A DNA stretch of 64,000 bases, from contig CAILUI010000408.1 in NCBI GenBank assembly GCA_903837355.1, positions 1 to 64,000 of the forward strand. Reading direction: 5' to 3'. Both the position numbers and the translations under genes were made by a program. This DNA comes from an uncultured Victivallales bacterium. Lineage in GTDB: Bacteria; Verrucomicrobiota; Lentisphaeria; Oligosphaerales; JAFGRS01. A model generated the notes under the pieces. It did no database searches, had not been told where the DNA came from, and saw only the letters and a program-made list of their open reading frames with translations. Below are positions 3,290 through 10,409 of this stretch, piece by piece. Position 1 is the first letter of the stretch. Every line of letters begins with the position of its first letter.

Positions 3290-3874
3290 TCAGACCACGG
3301 CGGCCACCGGCTCTCTGGCTTCCGCGTTGGCAGGACCCTGCACCGGCGTCTCGCTGGCGTTGGCCGCCTCGTGCTGCCCGTCCAGCCGGAGAACCGTCTG
3401 CAGGCGCTCGTGGCTGTCGCGGAACTTGAGCAGGAAGTTGAAGAGGACCTCGCCGTAGAACTGGCTGATCTTGTCGGTGATCGCCTTGTCCTCGCCCACC
3501 GATTTGGCGAGCGCCGCAAGATCGTTCAGCCGCCTGTGAATCTCGAACACCGCGTCCTTGATGCGTTCCGCCGCCGGTAATGCCGGGTCCTCGAAAGACA
3601 GACTGGCGCCCATGCCGAGCGCCCGCGCGTAGCGGACCACCTCGGCGATCCGCAGCCAATCGTCCGCAGAGGCCTCGAGCTTTGAGACCGTGCTCGGATG
3701 CACCCCCATCTTGCGGGCCACGTCGGTCTGCGTCATCCCCTTGGCGACGCGCATGCCGATCAGCATCGTCACCAGAGCGCACTCACGGGCGTGCGCCGTG
3801 ACGGCCTCCGCGACCCCGGCGTCACCGCACAGCGCCGCCGCTGCCTCCGCCGCCGATTCGTATCTTGCCTTCAT
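3290..3874 (-). CDS. XRE-family helix-turn-helix antitoxin (HigA-like)
   Basis: The protein has 194 residues. Residues ~33-75 form a Cro/CI-type helix-turn-helix (MRVAKGMTQTDVARKMGVHP then STVSKLEA), the DNA-binding fold of HigA antitoxins. The C-terminal half (residues ~100-165) is helical, with an amphipathic stretch that may bind the toxin. The gene begins 3 bases after the stop of the toxin gene upstream on the same strand, giving the toxin-first order typical of higBA. By analogy the protein would neutralise the toxin and repress the shared promoter at 4304-4331. It is longer than a usual HigA (~100 residues) because of the C-terminal extension, whose role is unknown. Confidence 0.75.
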   Translation of the reverse strand: MKARYESAAEAAAALCGDAGVAEAVTAHARECALVTMLIGMRVAKGMTQTDVARKMGVHPSTVSKLEASADDWLRIAEVVRYARALGMGASLSFEDPALPAAERIKDAVFEIHRRLNDLAALAKSVGEDKAITDKISQFYGEVLFNFLLKFRDSHERLQTVLRLDGQHEAANASETPVQGPANAEAREPVAAVV

Positions 3875-4339: not shown

Positions 4340-4387
4340 GGCCCCGTGTAGCACGTGCACGCAACGCGCAACGTGCTACACCGGGCC
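4340..4387. repeat. Long inverted repeat, copy A
   Basis: A 17-base arm (GGCCCCGTGTAGCACGT, 4340-4356) and its near-complement (4371-4387, one mismatch) are separated by a 14-base loop. A second copy with the same arm and loop length lies at 5255-5302. The element sits immediately upstream of the toxin-antitoxin promoter. Confidence 0.85.
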
Positions 4388-4401
4388 TGTCCGGCAGCCG
4401 G

Positions 4402-4590
4402 CAGGCAGAAAAAGTGCACGGAGCCGGGGCGGATTTGACGGACATTGTCCGTAAGAACCGGCGCCAGGCAGAGAAAGTGCACGGAGCCGGGGCGGAATCG
4501 GCGGACATTGACCGCCAGAACCGGCGCCAGGCAGAAAAAGTGCACGGAGCCGGGGCGGATTTGGCCGAGAATCTCGGCCAAACCCACCCC
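4402..4590. repeat. 63-bp tandem repeat, three units, each with its own hairpin
   Basis: Units begin at 4402, 4465 and 4528. The constant part is CAGGCAGAAAAAGTGCACGG followed by AGCCGGGGCGGA. After it each unit has a different palindrome: ACGGAC-ATT-GTCCGT in unit 1, GGCGG/CCGCC with one internal mismatch around ATT in unit 2, and TTGGCCGAG-AAT-CTCGGCCAA in unit 3. Stem sequences change while pairing and loop stay, so the structure seems to be what is kept. A fourth, diverged copy is at 5316-5371. The 63-base period is a multiple of three, which leaves open frames here that I do not regard as genes. Confidence 0.85.
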
Positions 4591-4831: not shown

Positions 4832-5266
4832 ATGCAACGTGTCGAATGCCCCGACTGCTCTCACTGCTTCAATGCCGATCTGCCCGCCGTCGGGCAGACG
4901 TGCCAGTGCCCCAGGTGCGGGGCGACGCTCTCCCTGGATGCGGCCGAGGATGGCGGGCCGAGCCCAGAACCAGAAGCAGAATCCATGCCCGCGGTGGCGG
5001 TGGGGAGTCCGGCGCCGCCGGTTGTCGTGCCGCCGTACGCGGCCCCGCTTCAGGAGCCTGAATCGCCCTTCGACTGGACGCCACTACTGCGGATCATGGC
5101 CGTCCTCTTCCTGTTGGCGGCGCTGTGCGCCATCCCCCGGGGGAACTCCGCCGCCTGGTTCGCCTGCTTCCTGATCACCTTTCTCATACTCTCCGTGCAG
5201 CAACTCACGCGGGCCGTCGAGAGCAGCAACCGACGGGCGGGGCGCCAGCCATCCGGCCCCGTGTAG
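4832..5266 (+). CDS. Small zinc-ribbon, single-pass membrane protein
   Basis: The product has 144 residues. Residues 6-31 carry two CxxC pairs (CPDCSHC and CQCPRCG), the pattern of an MJ0042-type zinc ribbon. A Pro/Glu-rich linker follows (residues ~40-85). Residues ~93-125 form one or two hydrophobic membrane segments (LLRIMAVLFLLAALCAIP, then FACFLITFLILSV), and the tail is basic. The zinc ribbon is probably cytoplasmic. The start is fixed by a GAGAGGAG ribosome-binding site. The stop codon lies inside the left arm of inverted repeat copy B, and the gene is bracketed by the two copies of the repeated module. Function is unknown. A role in sensing or in the mobility of the element is only a guess. 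Confidence 0.6.
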   Translation: MQRVECPDCSHCFNADLPAVGQTCQCPRCGATLSLDAAEDGGPSPEPEAESMPAVAVGSPAPPVVVPPYAAPLQEPESPFDWTPLLRIMAVLFLLAALCAIPRGNSAAWFACFLITFLILSVQQLTRAVESSNRRAGRQPSGPV

Positions 5267-5302
5267 CACGTGCACGAAACGCCCAACGTGCTACACCGGC
5301 CC
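5255..5302. repeat. Long inverted repeat, copy B
   Basis: The left arm (5255-5271) is identical to that of copy A. The right arm (5286-5302) differs by one base from copy A. The 14-base loop differs at two positions. It contains the TAG stop (5264-5266) of the zinc-ribbon gene and could help terminate it, although no T-run follows. Confidence 0.85.
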
Positions 5303-5315
5303 TGGCTGGCAGCCC

Positions 5316-5371
5316 CAGGCAGAAAAATTGCACGGCGGCAGGTCATAAATGGGTAAGAATCACACCCATTT
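5316..5371. repeat. Diverged fourth unit of the hairpin repeat
   Basis: CAGGCAGAAAAATTGCACGG (5316-5335) differs by one base from the units at 4402-4590. It is again followed by a palindrome with its own sequence: AAATGGGT (5347-5354) and ACCCATTT (5364-5371), a perfect 8-bp stem. Confidence 0.8.
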
Positions 5372-5417
5372 CCAGTGCTCAGCCTCACCCCGCCTCCGCC
5401 AACCGTCGCGGCAGACC

Positions 5418-5446
5418 TTGACACCGGTGCCGACCGAGTGTACTGT
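5418..5446 (+). promoter_or_regulatory. Sigma-70-type promoter of the 5623 gene
   Basis: A perfect -35 box TTGACA (5418-5423) is followed by a 17-base spacer and TACTGT (5441-5446). Transcription would begin near 5453, giving a leader of about 170 nucleotides. The -10 region GTACTGTTCTGGG is shared with 4601-4613. Confidence 0.6.
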
Positions 5447-5452
5447 TCTGGG

Positions 5453-5622
5453 TAACCGAGCCCCGGCTAAGGGCTCCAAACCAAAGGCAACTCCCGATTC
5501 TGTTTGTGGATCATCGGCGGTGAGACCCTCGGGTCTGGCGGTTCCTTTGTACCGTTTTTAGCCGCATCGCCGATGGTCCTCTTCCTGCCCCGGCTAAGGG
5601 CAGGTCACAAAGGAGGTCCACC
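5453..5622 (+). ncRNA. Candidate structured leader RNA (two-state switch)
   Basis: Four structures follow one another. Hairpin 1 (5458-5476) is GAGCCC-CGGCTAA-GGGCTC. A three-way junction closed by CATCGGCG/CGCCGATG (5512-5519 with 5568-5575) encloses AGACCC/GGGTCT (5523-5536) and CGGT/ACCG (5539-5554). A free segment TTAGCCG (5558-5564) lies inside that junction. Hairpin 2 (5585-5603) is CTGCCC-CGGCTAA-GGGCAG. The two hairpins share the loop while their outer stem pairs differ and compensate. Both loops are exact complements of TTAGCCG, so loop 1 and loop 2 can compete for it. The ribosome-binding site AGGAGG (5611-5616) starts 8 bases after hairpin 2. Pairing is seen directly; regulation is inferred. 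Confidence 0.55.
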
Positions 5623-7254
5623 ATGGACCGGAAGACGCCCCGCACCCCCGCCCCGACCCTGCCCCAGATCCCCGCGGAGTCCGCCGACTCCAGAGCCACC
5701 GAGCCCGGCCAGACCCCGCCGGCCGTCGCCGCCCCCGACCAGGAGTACCGCAAGGCGGTCCTCTACGCCGCCGCCCACGCAACCGCCGCGATCCAGCGGA
5801 GCCCTGGCCGGGAGCTTCTCCCCGGTGCCGCTGTCCACCAGGTCCTGGAGAGCGAAGACTGGACGCGCTTCGGCGGCGCTCCCGCCGGCGTGGACGTGCT
5901 GGCCCTCATGGGCCACGATCCCCGCCCCTCCGCCGTGTTCTGCGGCGCGGCCGACCCCGGCATACCGATGAAGCGCGGTGGCCCGTTCGCCGCCGACACC
6001 CTGCCGGAGTTCGTCGAGGGCTTCCGCGGCGTGGACTGGACGAAGTCCAACGCGTACCCGGTCAGTACGGAGTGGCCGTTGCCGGGACCGCAGGCGGCTG
6101 GGGCGTTCTGCACCTTCACCCCGGCCATGGCGGCGCTGGCGGAGCGCACGGCCGCCGTGCAGGGGCTGTTGTGGCATGACAGGCAGACGGACACGGACCG
6201 GCCGTTAGCCGAACTCACGTCGGTGGTGCGGCCGACCAGCGGCAGGATGACGCTGCTGCGTATCGGTTCCGCCGACGGTGGAACCTGGGCCTCCCTGGTC
6301 TGCCCGGATCTCTACTTCGCCCTGTACATCGGCTGCCACGGGTCAACCGGCACGGCCTGCCTCTACGTCCGCTTCTCCCGGAAGCCTGCGGATCCCGAAC
6401 TCGCCGCCGAGCCAGTCCCGGTTCACCAGCGGTCCTACAGCAGAGCCTGTCGCTACGCCGCCGCCCACGCAACTGCCGCGATCCAGCGGAGCCGCGGCCA
6501 GGCCCTTGACCAGGCGACCGCGGTCATGGACTTCCTCGATAGCGAGGACTTCACTCGCTTCGGTGGCCCGCCGTCCGTCAAGGACGTGCTTGCCCTCATG
6601 GTACCGTCCAACGATACCGCCGCCGCCGTCCTCCTGCCGTGCAAAGCCCAGGAAGGCCCCGCCGAGCCCTCCAGAACGCTGGGAGGCGTGCTGAACGCCC
6701 TGATGGCCGTCCCGGCCATCGGAACGCCGCAGACGGCCCCGCAGGCGGCTCCTGGCGCGGAATTGCCCGCCGCCGGCCCATCCGCCTTCCGTGCCGCCTG
6801 TCGACGGGCCGCTGACCGGGCCCGCGAGCTCCTGGGGCTCGGGGGAGGCCCCGCCGGAGGTGCCGACCCGACCGGCGCCGCCAACCCCAGCGGCGACCAG
6901 TGCGGCGAGGAGGGCAGCGAGTGGGAGGCCATGGCCAAGCTCGAAGACGCCGACCCCGACAGCCAGTTCCGTTCCGGCATCCTGCTCGAGCGCCGCAAGG
7001 CCGCGATCGGCGCCATGGTCGTCCAGGTCTACGGTGCCCAGGCCGTCCTGCCGGATTGGATGCAGCCCGAGGCCGGCCCCGTCTACATCCCCGACGTGGA
7101 GCGCACCGGCGAGGCCGTTCCCGTCGAGGTCGCCGAGAAAGACACCGGCCGCCTGGTCGTGGTCGTCCACCTCACGCGCCGTGGCGGCACCCTGCAGGTC
7201 CACATGCCCTACCGCCGCAACGACGGCTCCCCCGCCTTCATGTCGTGCGCCTGA
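5623..7254 (+). CDS. Unknown protein with an internally duplicated domain
   Basis: A 543-residue protein with a strong AGGAGG ribosome-binding site 6 bases before the ATG. Residues 42-96 and 272-326 are clear copies of one another, sharing YAAAHATAAIQRS, then SED(W/F)TRFGG and DVLALM. Copy 1 is followed by a further segment (residues ~100-265) that copy 2 largely lacks. Residues ~340-445 are a low-complexity Ala/Pro/Gly linker. Residues ~450-543 form a separate domain (EWEAMAKLEDADPDSQFRSG, ending in strands with RLVVVVHLTRRGG). There is no signal peptide or membrane segment and no catalytic motif I recognise. The gene has its own promoter and the structured leader at 5453-5622, so its expression is probably tightly controlled. 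Confidence 0.65.
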   Translation: MDRKTPRTPAPTLPQIPAESADSRATEPGQTPPAVAAPDQEYRKAVLYAAAHATAAIQRSPGRELLPGAAVHQVLESEDWTRFGGAPAGVDVLALMGHDPRPSAVFCGAADPGIPMKRGGPFAADTLPEFVEGFRGVDWTKSNAYPVSTEWPLPGPQAAGAFCTFTPAMAALAERTAAVQGLLWHDRQTDTDRPLAELTSVVRPTSGRMTLLRIGSADGGTWASLVCPDLYFALYIGCHGSTGTACLYVRFSRKPADPELAAEPVPVHQRSYSRACRYAAAHATAAIQRSRGQALDQATAVMDFLDSEDFTRFGGPPSVKDVLALMVPSNDTAAAVLLPCKAQEGPAEPSRTLGGVLNALMAVPAIGTPQTAPQAAPGAELPAAGPSAFRAACRRAADRARELLGLGGGPAGGADPTGAANPSGDQCGEEGSEWEAMAKLEDADPDSQFRSGILLERRKAAIGAMVVQVYGAQAVLPDWMQPEAGPVYIPDVERTGEAVPVEVAEKDTGRLVVVVHLTRRGGTLQVHMPYRRNDGSPAFMSCA

Positions 7255-7379: not shown

Positions 7380-8312
7380 ATGGACCGCGATTCACGACGC
7401 CCCGAGACAGTGGCAGAGCAGGCGGCGCGGCTGGACGCCGCCTGGCAAGAGAACGGCGCCGCCGACAACTCGCCCGTGTTCACAGAGGTTGCCAACAACC
7501 TGGATGGGCCGGAAGAGATCGCAGAGTTTGCCCGCGACAACCCCGTGGCGGCACAGTGCGTGGAGAAGTTCTTTGGGATGGTAATTGTCGATCCCGTAGG
7601 AACGCTGATCCTTGCCCTGAAGTACAAGCGCCCGGACATGACGCAAGACCAGATCGCCATGACCGTGAAGGAGCGTGGCTTCGCGGGATTCAACAACAGG
7701 GGCCGGGCGTCTGAGGCAGTCAAGCGGTTCGAGGAACGCTTCCCGGAACTGGCTGGTGTGATGACTAAGGACCCCCGTGGCGGCGACCGGCACAAGAGGA
7801 TCCGCAACAACGCCGAGCTCCTGGCAGAGTCTGAGCGCATGAGGGCGGAAGAGCAGAAGAAGCCGATTGCCGAGCGCCGCCCGGTAAAGGGCGAGGGCAG
7901 CATTTACCAGGAGATCGCCGAGACCTACAAGATCATGGGTCGGTACGGGAAGCCGAGTTGGATGGTCGTTGAGAATCGGATTCGCAGCGAAAAAAAACGT
8001 CATGAACTTGCGCAGTGCATTGGCGTAAGTTACGCCACGCACGCGCAAGGGGCGTTAAGTGATAAGACGAAACGGTACCTAGGGGGCCTGACGGCGGCAG
8101 AGCGGAGCGAACTGGAGGGCTTTGGCCTGTCGACTGACCGTCTGCTGACGGTACACGAATTCGCGGCGGCACTCCAAGTCCCGGTGGCGACCGTTCTTCG
8201 CCTGGTGGCCATGGGCAAGCTCCCCGCGGTCCGAGTGTCGCCCCGCGTCCTGCGCTTCGAGCATCGGGCCGCGCTGACATTCTTCCGGCAGCGCTCCACG
8301 CTGGCGACGTAA
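7380..8312 (+). CDS. Helix-turn-helix (excisionase-type) DNA-binding protein
   Basis: The product has 310 residues. The C-terminal ~55 residues (LLTVHEFAAALQVPVATVLR, then LVAMGKLPAVRVSPRVLRFE) match the MerR/excisionase HTH_17 pattern, in which a winged helix is followed by a recognition strand ending in R-F. The N-terminal ~250 residues are charged and helical and contain a basic segment (RHKRIRNNAELLAESERMRAEEQ), perhaps a coiled coil. A segment around residues 80-120 (DMTQDQIAMTVKERGFAGFN) may be another DNA-binding helix pair. It has its own promoter, a good AAAGGAG site and a strong terminator, so it is a single-gene unit. It could be a phage-type or plasmid-type regulator; the target is unknown. 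Confidence 0.6.
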   Translation: MDRDSRRPETVAEQAARLDAAWQENGAADNSPVFTEVANNLDGPEEIAEFARDNPVAAQCVEKFFGMVIVDPVGTLILALKYKRPDMTQDQIAMTVKERGFAGFNNRGRASEAVKRFEERFPELAGVMTKDPRGGDRHKRIRNNAELLAESERMRAEEQKKPIAERRPVKGEGSIYQEIAETYKIMGRYGKPSWMVVENRIRSEKKRHELAQCIGVSYATHAQGALSDKTKRYLGGLTAAERSELEGFGLSTDRLLTVHEFAAALQVPVATVLRLVAMGKLPAVRVSPRVLRFEHRAALTFFRQRSTLAT

Positions 8313-8570: not shown

Positions 8571-9428
8571 ATGCGCACCATGCACCGAATGACCGCAGAC
8601 ACAGTGACCTTTGGCGTGGAGCTGGAGACCGTTGTACCGGCGGGCGCCCTGCAGATCGGGGGCTACCACAACGGCCTGCCCGTGACCGCGGCGCCGGCCT
8701 TCAACGGCACCCACTGGCGCGCCGAGCGCGACGGCAGCATAGTGGCCCCGGCCGGCTATGTGGCCTGCGAGTTTGTGAGCCCGGTGCTGAGCGGCCCCGA
8801 GGGCGTCCGCAACCTGGTGGACATGGTGGCGTGGATCCGGGAGGTCGGTGGACGGGTCAACCCGAGCTGCGGTTGCCACGTGCACGTGGGCGTGGCGAGC
8901 GTGCTGCCCGGCGCCGACCCGGCGGCGACCGCCGACTACATCCGGCGGCTGGCGGGCGTGGTCAACATCAACGCCGAGGCCCTGTATGCGCAGACCGGCA
9001 CCCGCCGCGACCTGAGCCGCTACACCCGCCGCCTGAGCGACGACATACGGGCGACCCTGGATCTGGCCCGCCGGGAGGGCGACCCCGGCCGGTACCGTTG
9101 CGCCGACCGGTACCGCGTGCTGAACGTCACCAACGTGACCACCCGCGGGACGGTGGAGTTCAGGGCCTTTGCCGGCACCCTGAGCACCGAAAAGGTGTTG
9201 CACCACCTGTGGACCTGCCTTTTCATGTGCGTGTTTGCCCGCGAGCTGCAGCACGTGCCCTGGACGGGGCACGGCTGGGCCAGCATGGCCGGCGGCAACG
9301 GCGAGAAGGCCCTCCGCGGACTGCACCGCAAGATGGGCCTGCACTGCCTGGTGGGCGACATGGGCGAGCGCCGCCCCGCCATGAAGGCGGAGGCCCTGCG
9401 GTTGGCCCGGAAGTTTGACAGCCGCTGA
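8571..9428 (+). CDS. Putative amidoligase (Amidoligase_2 / COOH-NH2 ligase family)
   Basis: The ATG at 8571 was chosen for the CAGGAGG site 8 bases upstream; it gives 285 residues. Two hallmarks are visible: an acidic FGVELET motif near the N-terminus (residues ~14-20) and GCHVHVGV near residue 103. These match the glutamine-synthetase-fold amidoligases, which are predicted to join a carboxyl group to an amine at the expense of ATP, forming peptide or isopeptide bonds. A later segment has an R-rich strand (TTRGTVEFRAFAGTL), also typical of the fold. The next gene, a HAD-like protein, lies about 60 bases downstream and is probably co-expressed. In other genomes the family sits in phage and peptide-modification contexts. 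The substrate cannot be told from sequence. Confidence 0.75.
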   Translation: MRTMHRMTADTVTFGVELETVVPAGALQIGGYHNGLPVTAAPAFNGTHWRAERDGSIVAPAGYVACEFVSPVLSGPEGVRNLVDMVAWIREVGGRVNPSCGCHVHVGVASVLPGADPAATADYIRRLAGVVNINAEALYAQTGTRRDLSRYTRRLSDDIRATLDLARREGDPGRYRCADRYRVLNVTNVTTRGTVEFRAFAGTLSTEKVLHHLWTCLFMCVFARELQHVPWTGHGWASMAGGNGEKALRGLHRKMGLHCLVGDMGERRPAMKAEALRLARKFDSR

Positions 9429-9490
9429 AGATCATGGCCCCGGACGGCCCGGCCCCGCGCCGGGCTGTCTGGCGGCCCGGGAGGAGCCCC

Positions 9491-9991
9491 GTGGACCTGT
9501 TCACCCATGCCGGCCTGACGCGAGAGCCCCGGATCATCCTGCTGGACTACCAGTGCACCCTGGTAGCGAACGGCGACGGCCGCCGCGAGTGGTTTGCCCG
9601 ACACGGCGGGAGGCGGCCGTACACCGACTGGATCGGTCAGGAGGTCTACCGGGAGTGGCTGCTGCCCCTTTTCCAGGGGCGCCGTGTGGTGCTGATCACC
9701 GCCAGAGACGCCCGGTACGAAGTGCCGACCCTGGCCCGGATCGGGGAGGTCCTCGACTGGCAGCCCGACGAGTGGAACTTCAACCCGTGGGGCCTCCGCC
9801 CCGACCTGTGCAAGCGCCGAGTGCTCGAGGAGTCCGTGTTTGCCCGCCACGGCCGGCCGGAAGCGACCGCCTACCTTGCCCTGGAGTCCAACCCGACCAC
9901 CCGCGCCATGTACGCCAGAGAGGGCGTCCACGCCGTCCGCGTTCCCGAGGACGGGCACTGGACGGCACTCCCGCAGATCCCGCCGGGCTGA
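9491..9991 (+). CDS. HAD-like phosphatase-type protein
   Basis: A GTG start at 9491 is preferred because GGGAGGAG lies 4 bases upstream. An in-frame ATG at 9434 has no ribosome-binding site but would add 19 residues. The product has 166 residues. Motif I is LLDYQCTLVAN, where the first Asp (nucleophile) is present but the usual second Asp is Gln. Motif II is VVLITARD, and motif IV would lie in the region ESNPTTRAMYAREG. This is the HAD fold as in small PNKP/5'-nucleotidase-type phosphatases. Loss of the general acid Asp suggests altered or reduced phosphatase activity. It is paired with the amidoligase upstream, so a shared pathway on a phosphorylated peptide or nucleotide intermediate is possible, but this is inference. 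Confidence 0.65.
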   Translation: MDLFTHAGLTREPRIILLDYQCTLVANGDGRREWFARHGGRRPYTDWIGQEVYREWLLPLFQGRRVVLITARDARYEVPTLARIGEVLDWQPDEWNFNPWGLRPDLCKRRVLEESVFARHGRPEATAYLALESNPTTRAMYAREGVHAVRVPEDGHWTALPQIPPG

Positions 9992-10324: not shown

Positions 10325-10409
10325 TGGTGGTAGGGCTTGGATTTGAACCAAGGAAGGCGATGCCAGCAGATTTACAGTCTGCCCCGTTTGACCACTTCGG
10401 TACCCTACC
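10325..10409 (-). tRNA. tRNA-Tyr (anticodon GTA)
   Basis: This is a class II tRNA of 85 nucleotides including an encoded CCA. The acceptor stem is GGTAGGG/CCCTACC, and the anticodon stem-loop GCAGA-CTGTAAA-TCTGC places GTA in the loop. A long variable arm precedes the T-arm CTTGG-TTCAAAT-CCAAG. On the minus strand a -10-like GATAAT (10422-10417) lies just upstream. The 3' end faces the accessory region, the usual orientation for an element integrated at a tRNA gene. Confidence 0.97.

Follow-up and report, generated by a model that had tools for sequence, protein, structure and literature searches.

A diverged phage C4-type antisense RNA probably controls an orphan gene in a prophage-like region of an uncultured Victivallales bacterium

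Our analysis indicates that the structured leader at 5418-5622 of the window (the whole 64,000-nucleotide stretch analysed here) is a diverged phage C4-type antisense RNA system, which would release a C4 RNA and repress in trans the translation of the downstream 543-aa gene; we give this reading a probability of about 0.85. Phages P1 and P7 use C4 as their immunity RNA, and it keeps P1 dormant. The elements of the leader run in the order promoter, a1, b1, C4 domain (containing b' and a'), a2, b2 on the ribosome-binding site, and the start codon of the downstream gene at 5623 (Table 1).

Re-reading the sequence returned the promoter, both hairpins, their shared loops and TTAGCCG with the bases and coordinates given in the initial annotation. 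Its description of a structured regulatory leader in which one segment is complementary to two hairpin loops is supported, and control of the next gene is supported as probable. TTAGCCG lies, as described, in a junction closed by CATCGGCG/CGCCGATG, but the closing stem is longer than noted (15 pairs), and the spacer between the second hairpin and AGGAGG is 7 bases rather than 8. We identified a further pairing, between b' (TCCTTTGT) and b2 (ACAAAGGA), that was absent from that annotation, which had a1, a' and a2. Transcription is expected from the promoter sequence to start near 5453, immediately 5' of the a1 hairpin.

Table 1. Features of the leader and its surroundings (window coordinates).
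Feature	Position	Strand	Evidence
Promoter: TTGACA 5418-5423, 17-base spacer, TACTGT 5441-5446	5418..5446	+	sequence
a1 hairpin GAGCCC-CGGCTAA-GGGCTC; a1 = loop 5464-5470, complement of a'	5458..5476	+	sequence, fold, shuffles
b1 CAAAGG, 6/6 complement of the CCTTTG core within the b' loop	5482..5487	+	sequence, duplex energy
C4-type antisense RNA domain, three-way junction	5508..5584	+	RF01695, model R1, covariation
C4 outer stem, 15 pairs	5508-5522/5565-5579	+	
C4 arm P2	5523-5527/5532-5536	+	
C4 arm P3	5537-5542/5551-5556	+	
b' loop TCCTTTGT, terminal loop of second arm (P3); 8/8 complement of b2	5543..5550	+	sequence, fold, duplex energy
a' TTAGCCG, 3' junction strand; 7/7 complement of both a1 and a2 loops	5558..5564	+	sequence
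a2 hairpin CTGCCC-CGGCTAA-GGGCAG; a2 = loop 5591-5597	5585..5603	+	sequence, fold
b2 ACAAAGGA 5607-5614, overlapping Shine-Dalgarno AGGAGG 5611-5616	5607..5616	+	sequence
Probable target gene, 543-aa orphan protein	5623..7254	+	ORF
XRE-type phage-like regulator, upstream of leader	3290..3874	-	Pfam HTH_3 1.7e-10; phrog_1373 4.9e-13
310-aa protein with C-terminal excisionase-like HTH, next gene after target	7380..8312	+	HTH_17 7.8e-5 (below Pfam cut-off); phrog_66 6.9e-4
Amidoligase gene	8571..9428	+	phrog_2443 1.5e-20; amidoligase matches in 81 phage records
Phage-type gene without assigned function	9434..9991	+	phrog_32036 3.2e-18
tRNA-Tyr, 3' end towards prophage-like region	10325..10409	-	

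The hairpins, their loops and the TTAGCCG complement are real and not a product of chance. Among 20,000 dinucleotide shuffles of the leader, two same-loop hairpins (6-bp stem, 7-nt loop) appeared twice, and none gave such a pair with a complement elsewhere. On the plus strand of the whole window, this is the only non-overlapping same-loop pair of that size within 250 bases. The leader folds at -74 kcal/mol, compared with a shuffle mean of -61.8 (z = -2.7). Elsewhere in the bacterium's own 9.6-Mb genome, neither the leader nor its loop motif was found again.

The initial annotation did not recognise the leader as a known riboswitch class; the view that it belongs to an unrecognised class is not supported, given an Rfam match, covariance models and the existence of relatives. 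On sequence grounds, we assign the three-way junction at 5508-5579 as a diverged phage C4 antisense RNA, a C4 homologue with a predicted C4-like action that lies outside curated membership. In 321 bases searched, RF01695 matched 5502-5585 on the plus strand over its full model length (1-87; 31.0 bits, E 3.2e-4), and over the whole 9.6-Mb genome it matched this locus alone (E 0.0023; P1, the positive control, scored 68.8 bits). At gathering cut-offs the leader is without any Rfam match: its score falls short of the curated 45 bits of RF01695, and RF03163 (c4-a1b1), which scores 51 bits on P1, found nothing at the leader up to E 5. Both results count against the C4 reading, and because of them we call the RNA a diverged variant. 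The other Rfam match on the 321 bases was one sub-threshold snoRNA (E 1.9), and no riboswitch family matched either at gathering level or up to E 5.

The architecture of the domain is that of a C4 RNA, with an outer stem, a short capped arm, an arm carrying the b' loop, and a single-stranded a' in the 3' junction strand. As in C4, a' is complementary to both an upstream a1 and a downstream a2 (7/7 each), and b' is an 8/8 complement of b2, which overlaps the ribosome-binding site in front of the 543-aa gene. The GGA at 5508 fits the GGW processing motif (PMC5320573) and is the predicted 5' end of the C4 RNA after cleavage by RNase P; its 3' end at 5584 is a guess made by analogy with the 77-nt C4 of P1.

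A covariance model of eight known C4s from which the window was excluded (R1) gave a single match in the 64-kb window, namely the leader (E 0.003). A second model, built from the window and two relatives with proteobacterial sequences excluded (R3), recovered ten C4-type loci including proteobacterial C4s (E 2e-6 to 2e-3), and matched none of nine loci that have a b'-gap-b2 motif but are not C4s; that R3 misses P1 counts against the C4 reading. Judged from these profiles, the homology holds independently of the window through R1 and R3. In an alignment of the window with the eight C4s, we counted 22 cells with two-sided pair changes against 7.8 in shuffles, and the paired fraction of 82% dropped to 35-52% once the structure was slid. 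Among three sequences, 8 of 26 pairs are compensating, compared with 0-1 when slid.

Homologous leaders with conserved pairing, whose absence the initial annotation had named as a refutation, do exist. Covariance-model searches of the class and phylum, checked by eye, identified four further leaders of the same type in three genomes of the same family or class: L154 from the same family as the host, L147 and L165 both from genome G359, and L145 from G435. All four have an a1 hairpin, and the position of the promoter relative to it is repeated in L154 (TTGACA) and L147 (a TATAAT-like -10). Each leader's own a' matches its own a2 at 7/7 positions with wobble allowed, and its own b' pairs with its own b2, while the sequences themselves vary between loci. 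L154, for example, has a1 GGACCC-CTATCAC-GGGTCC, a2 CTGCCC-CTACCAC-GGGCAG and a' GTGGTAG, with b' GCCTACT and b2 AGTAGGC; its a2 stem is identical to that of the window and the loop is different. The stems, a'/a2 and b'/b2 co-vary across the relatives, and in every one of the five leaders, the window's included, b' can pair with the ribosome site. Non-cognate a'/a2 combinations among the five match at a mean of 2.9/7, a figure that illustrates the effect and is no measure of it, because the segments were picked by structural place and partly by complementarity; the stem covariation is free of this weakness. With RF01695, L145 reaches 32.3 bits and L152, which is the leader of L147, reaches 30.3 bits, on a par with the window. 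L154 and L165 have no match to RF01695 or R1, a further point against the C4 reading, and their placement rests on architecture and R3.

The two leaders of G359 lie on separate prophage contigs (L147/L152 on G359:C108, L165/L168 on G359:C319) before 110-aa proteins that are 93% identical, and carry different a' segments (TGTTGAA and ACTCGAA) and different b' codes. They stand in the same relation as P1 and P7; between those phages a deviation of only 4 nt limits cross-reaction (PMC5320573). On the contigs of the relatives lie phage packaging, baseplate or late-activator genes, variously for a terminase large or small subunit, a P2-type capsid scaffold GPO, Ogr/Delta-type zinc fingers or baseplate proteins. 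Small gene pairs that by eye look like HigB/HigA or other toxin-antitoxin systems adjoin the C4 leaders of the prophages at L145/L169 and L147/L167.

Other candidates from these searches were rejected. A match in genome G012 (L010) is a chance hit in coding sequence that looks cysteine synthase-like by eye, and viral contig L150 likewise gave a chance match in coding sequence. Matches to model R2 (L146, L148, L149) and to R3 (L155, L156) fall in coding or terminator-like sequence; one-by-one inspection in the R3 class and phylum search covered matches with E of 0.02 or below. A b'-gap-b2 pattern search of 388 phylum genomes gave 5 matches, about as many as its reversed control, and only that of the window is real. 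RF01695 with strict prefilters found no match in the 388 genomes, a void negative since it also missed the window itself.

In P1 and P7, C4 RNA is processed out of a longer RNA and acts in trans (PMC5320573); RNase P releases it at GGW, b' represses translation at the ribosome site, and a' sets specificity (PMC5320573, PMC8198154). The window shares with these systems (immI operon; RF01695, with a1/b1 targets in RF03163) the order promoter-a1-b1-C4-a2-b2-gene, a three-way junction whose 3' strand holds a 7-nt a' and whose second-arm loop holds b', identical a1 and a2, a b2 beside the start codon, and GG(W) at the predicted 5' end. The P1 record is annotated in the order a1, b1, c4, a2, b2, icd, and in the P1 sequence a1 and a2 both read TTGACAG, while a' (CTGTCAA) occupies the 3' junction strand and b' the second-arm loop. 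The window leader differs from P1 in being more compact (about 44 nt from a1 to C4, compared with 81), from P1 and P7 in holding a1 and a2 within perfect 6-bp hairpins, and from P1 and the other known C4s examined in an a' that lacks their AA end. Its target is an unrelated orphan and not icd/ant, and its host is apparently not a proteobacterium.

The group 1 C4-derived sRNAs of Acinetobacter baumannii, which are released from longer RNAs at GGW (PMC5320573), have a C4 fold and a variable a' as in the window; they occur in many copies per genome with proposed host-transcript targets, whereas the window has a single copy with targets in cis on the same transcript. The CI RNA of phage P4 with seqA and seqC, compared by description, has a similar layout, as a processed leader RNA with one complementary site upstream and one downstream, but unlike the repression proposed here it is described as causing transcription termination. 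IsrK of Gifsy-1 is a structural homologue of seqA (PMC4825925).

Under the C4 reading, a single promoter would drive a transcript spanning a1-b1-C4-a2-b2-gene, and the three-way-junction domain (about 5508-5584) would be excised, probably through RNase P cleavage at GGA 5508 of the kind seen in P1 and P7. The excised domain would then serve as a small antisense RNA whose a' docks onto the a2 hairpin loop and whose b' loop masks the Shine-Dalgarno region, so that the 543-aa gene would no longer be translated from its own or other copies of the transcript. In this scheme the ribosome would be blocked by b'/b2 rather than by an a pairing alone. Early transcription termination follows C4 action in P1 and P7, and might come next here. 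The upstream a1/b1 copy would be a second target that could titrate or delay the C4 RNA. The expected outcome is a prophage-encoded function kept silent in the lysogen, with immunity to related phages that share the same a/b code.

The initial annotation read the same geometry as a two-state pseudoknot switch. Acting in cis, such a switch would pair a' first with the loop of a1 and then with that of a2, ligand-dependent or not, and so set access to the Shine-Dalgarno sequence. Both loops are indeed perfect complements of one segment and could form in order during transcription, and duplex and fold energy calculations predict that a', a1 and a2 are all unpaired, hence free to compete. Yet the same a1/a2 duplication is found in C4 systems known to be processed and trans-acting (P1 and P7; PMC5320573), no riboswitch family matches the leader, and the switch leaves out the b' loop that pairs with the ribosome site throughout these leaders. 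We consider such a switch unlikely and see nothing that specifically supports it; the middle domain is better read as a separable antisense RNA, and the flanking hairpins as its target sites.

No relative of the 543-aa protein turned up in the collections searched, including Pfam, PHROG and phage records, and the protein shows no recognisable likeness to icd/ant (antirepressor) of the P1-type immI operon; this orphan status counts against the C4 reading. A single-sequence structure prediction had a mean pLDDT of 37, too low for use. The gene contains an internal duplication (repeat D2, 5746-5911 and 6436-6601; 166 nt, 74% identical), and neither its product nor the 562-aa, 310-aa and 185-aa proteins have relatives in viral contigs. 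The genes behind other C4s are varied too, many of them short ORFs. By analogy with P1, the target could be an antirepressor or have another function harmful to lysogeny.

Its gene content marks the region up to tRNA-Tyr as prophage-like, and the tRNA is a possible integration site and boundary. In L154, about 440 bases separate a tRNA at 1058-1131 from the C4 domain downstream of it, and the window's region is likewise bounded by tRNA-Tyr. The genome is estimated to be 8% contaminated; the contig reads as carrying ordinary nuo genes downstream, and the same-family relative L154 supports its placement.

The contig ends inside the prophage-like region, where we recognised no phage structural gene (Pfam, PHROG) and saw no integrase or second att site. 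The missing structural genes and integrase count against the C4 reading and would suit a degraded prophage end whose C4 leader is an inactive relic. Against decay, every pairing (a1/a', a2/a' and b2/b') and all three stems are preserved, as are the promoter and the ribosome site, and the target retains an open frame of 543 codons, leaving a relic with only a small chance of being the answer. A chance fold, or attenuator or terminator hairpins unrelated to C4, could draw on the sub-cut-off RF01695 score and on the tendency of GC-rich leaders to fold well by default, as their shuffles do, but is barely credible given an arrangement never seen in shuffles, the lack of a U-run after either hairpin, reciprocal model matches, and co-varying relatives that refute it for practical purposes.

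C4 RNAs are listed for Proteobacteria and phages (PMC2864571). Judging by this leader and its relatives, phages of a different bacterial phylum appear to use the same immunity device, in a form that the current Rfam cut-off does not pick up. These leaders also present a natural recoding of the seven-base specificity segment with matching changes in its targets, so that RNA-coded immunity specificity becomes testable by swapping a few bases. This includes the two G359 prophages, which have nearly the same target protein and different codes and form a natural pair for a heteroimmunity test. C4-type leaders also give a starting point for working out what several orphan prophage genes do. A more speculative picture, which we think rather doubtful, is of a separate, fast-diversifying C4 lineage in phages of an apparently non-proteobacterial phylum, whose own a/b codes would give mutually blind immunity and whose a1/a2 hairpins would act as a built-in timer, through cis sequestration of new antisense RNA by a1/b1, besides its trans targets.

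We also noted C4 matches of equal score with the same downstream 39-aa ORF on a contig labelled Desulfosarcina cetonica (L140, 6784-6921) and on an IMG/VR contig (L018, 11549-11686); either C4 may occur outside beta- and gammaproteobacteria, or the contig label may reflect contamination.

Within the window, GGTCCA-CCA-TGGACC (5616-5630) could fold into a small hairpin that takes in the end of the Shine-Dalgarno sequence and the start codon, possibly an extra layer of translational control. About 45 bases 5' of the -35 box lies an inverted repeat, AAATGGGT...ACCCATTT (5345-5373), which from its sequence could be an operator or a terminator remnant. A repeat unit is present twice, at 4340-4587 and 5255-5368, with the second copy directly upstream of the C4 promoter; in it, CAGGCAGAAAAAGTGCACGG-type units come after an inverted repeat, GTGTAGCACGT...ACGTGCTACAC, and the first copy has three of these units in tandem.
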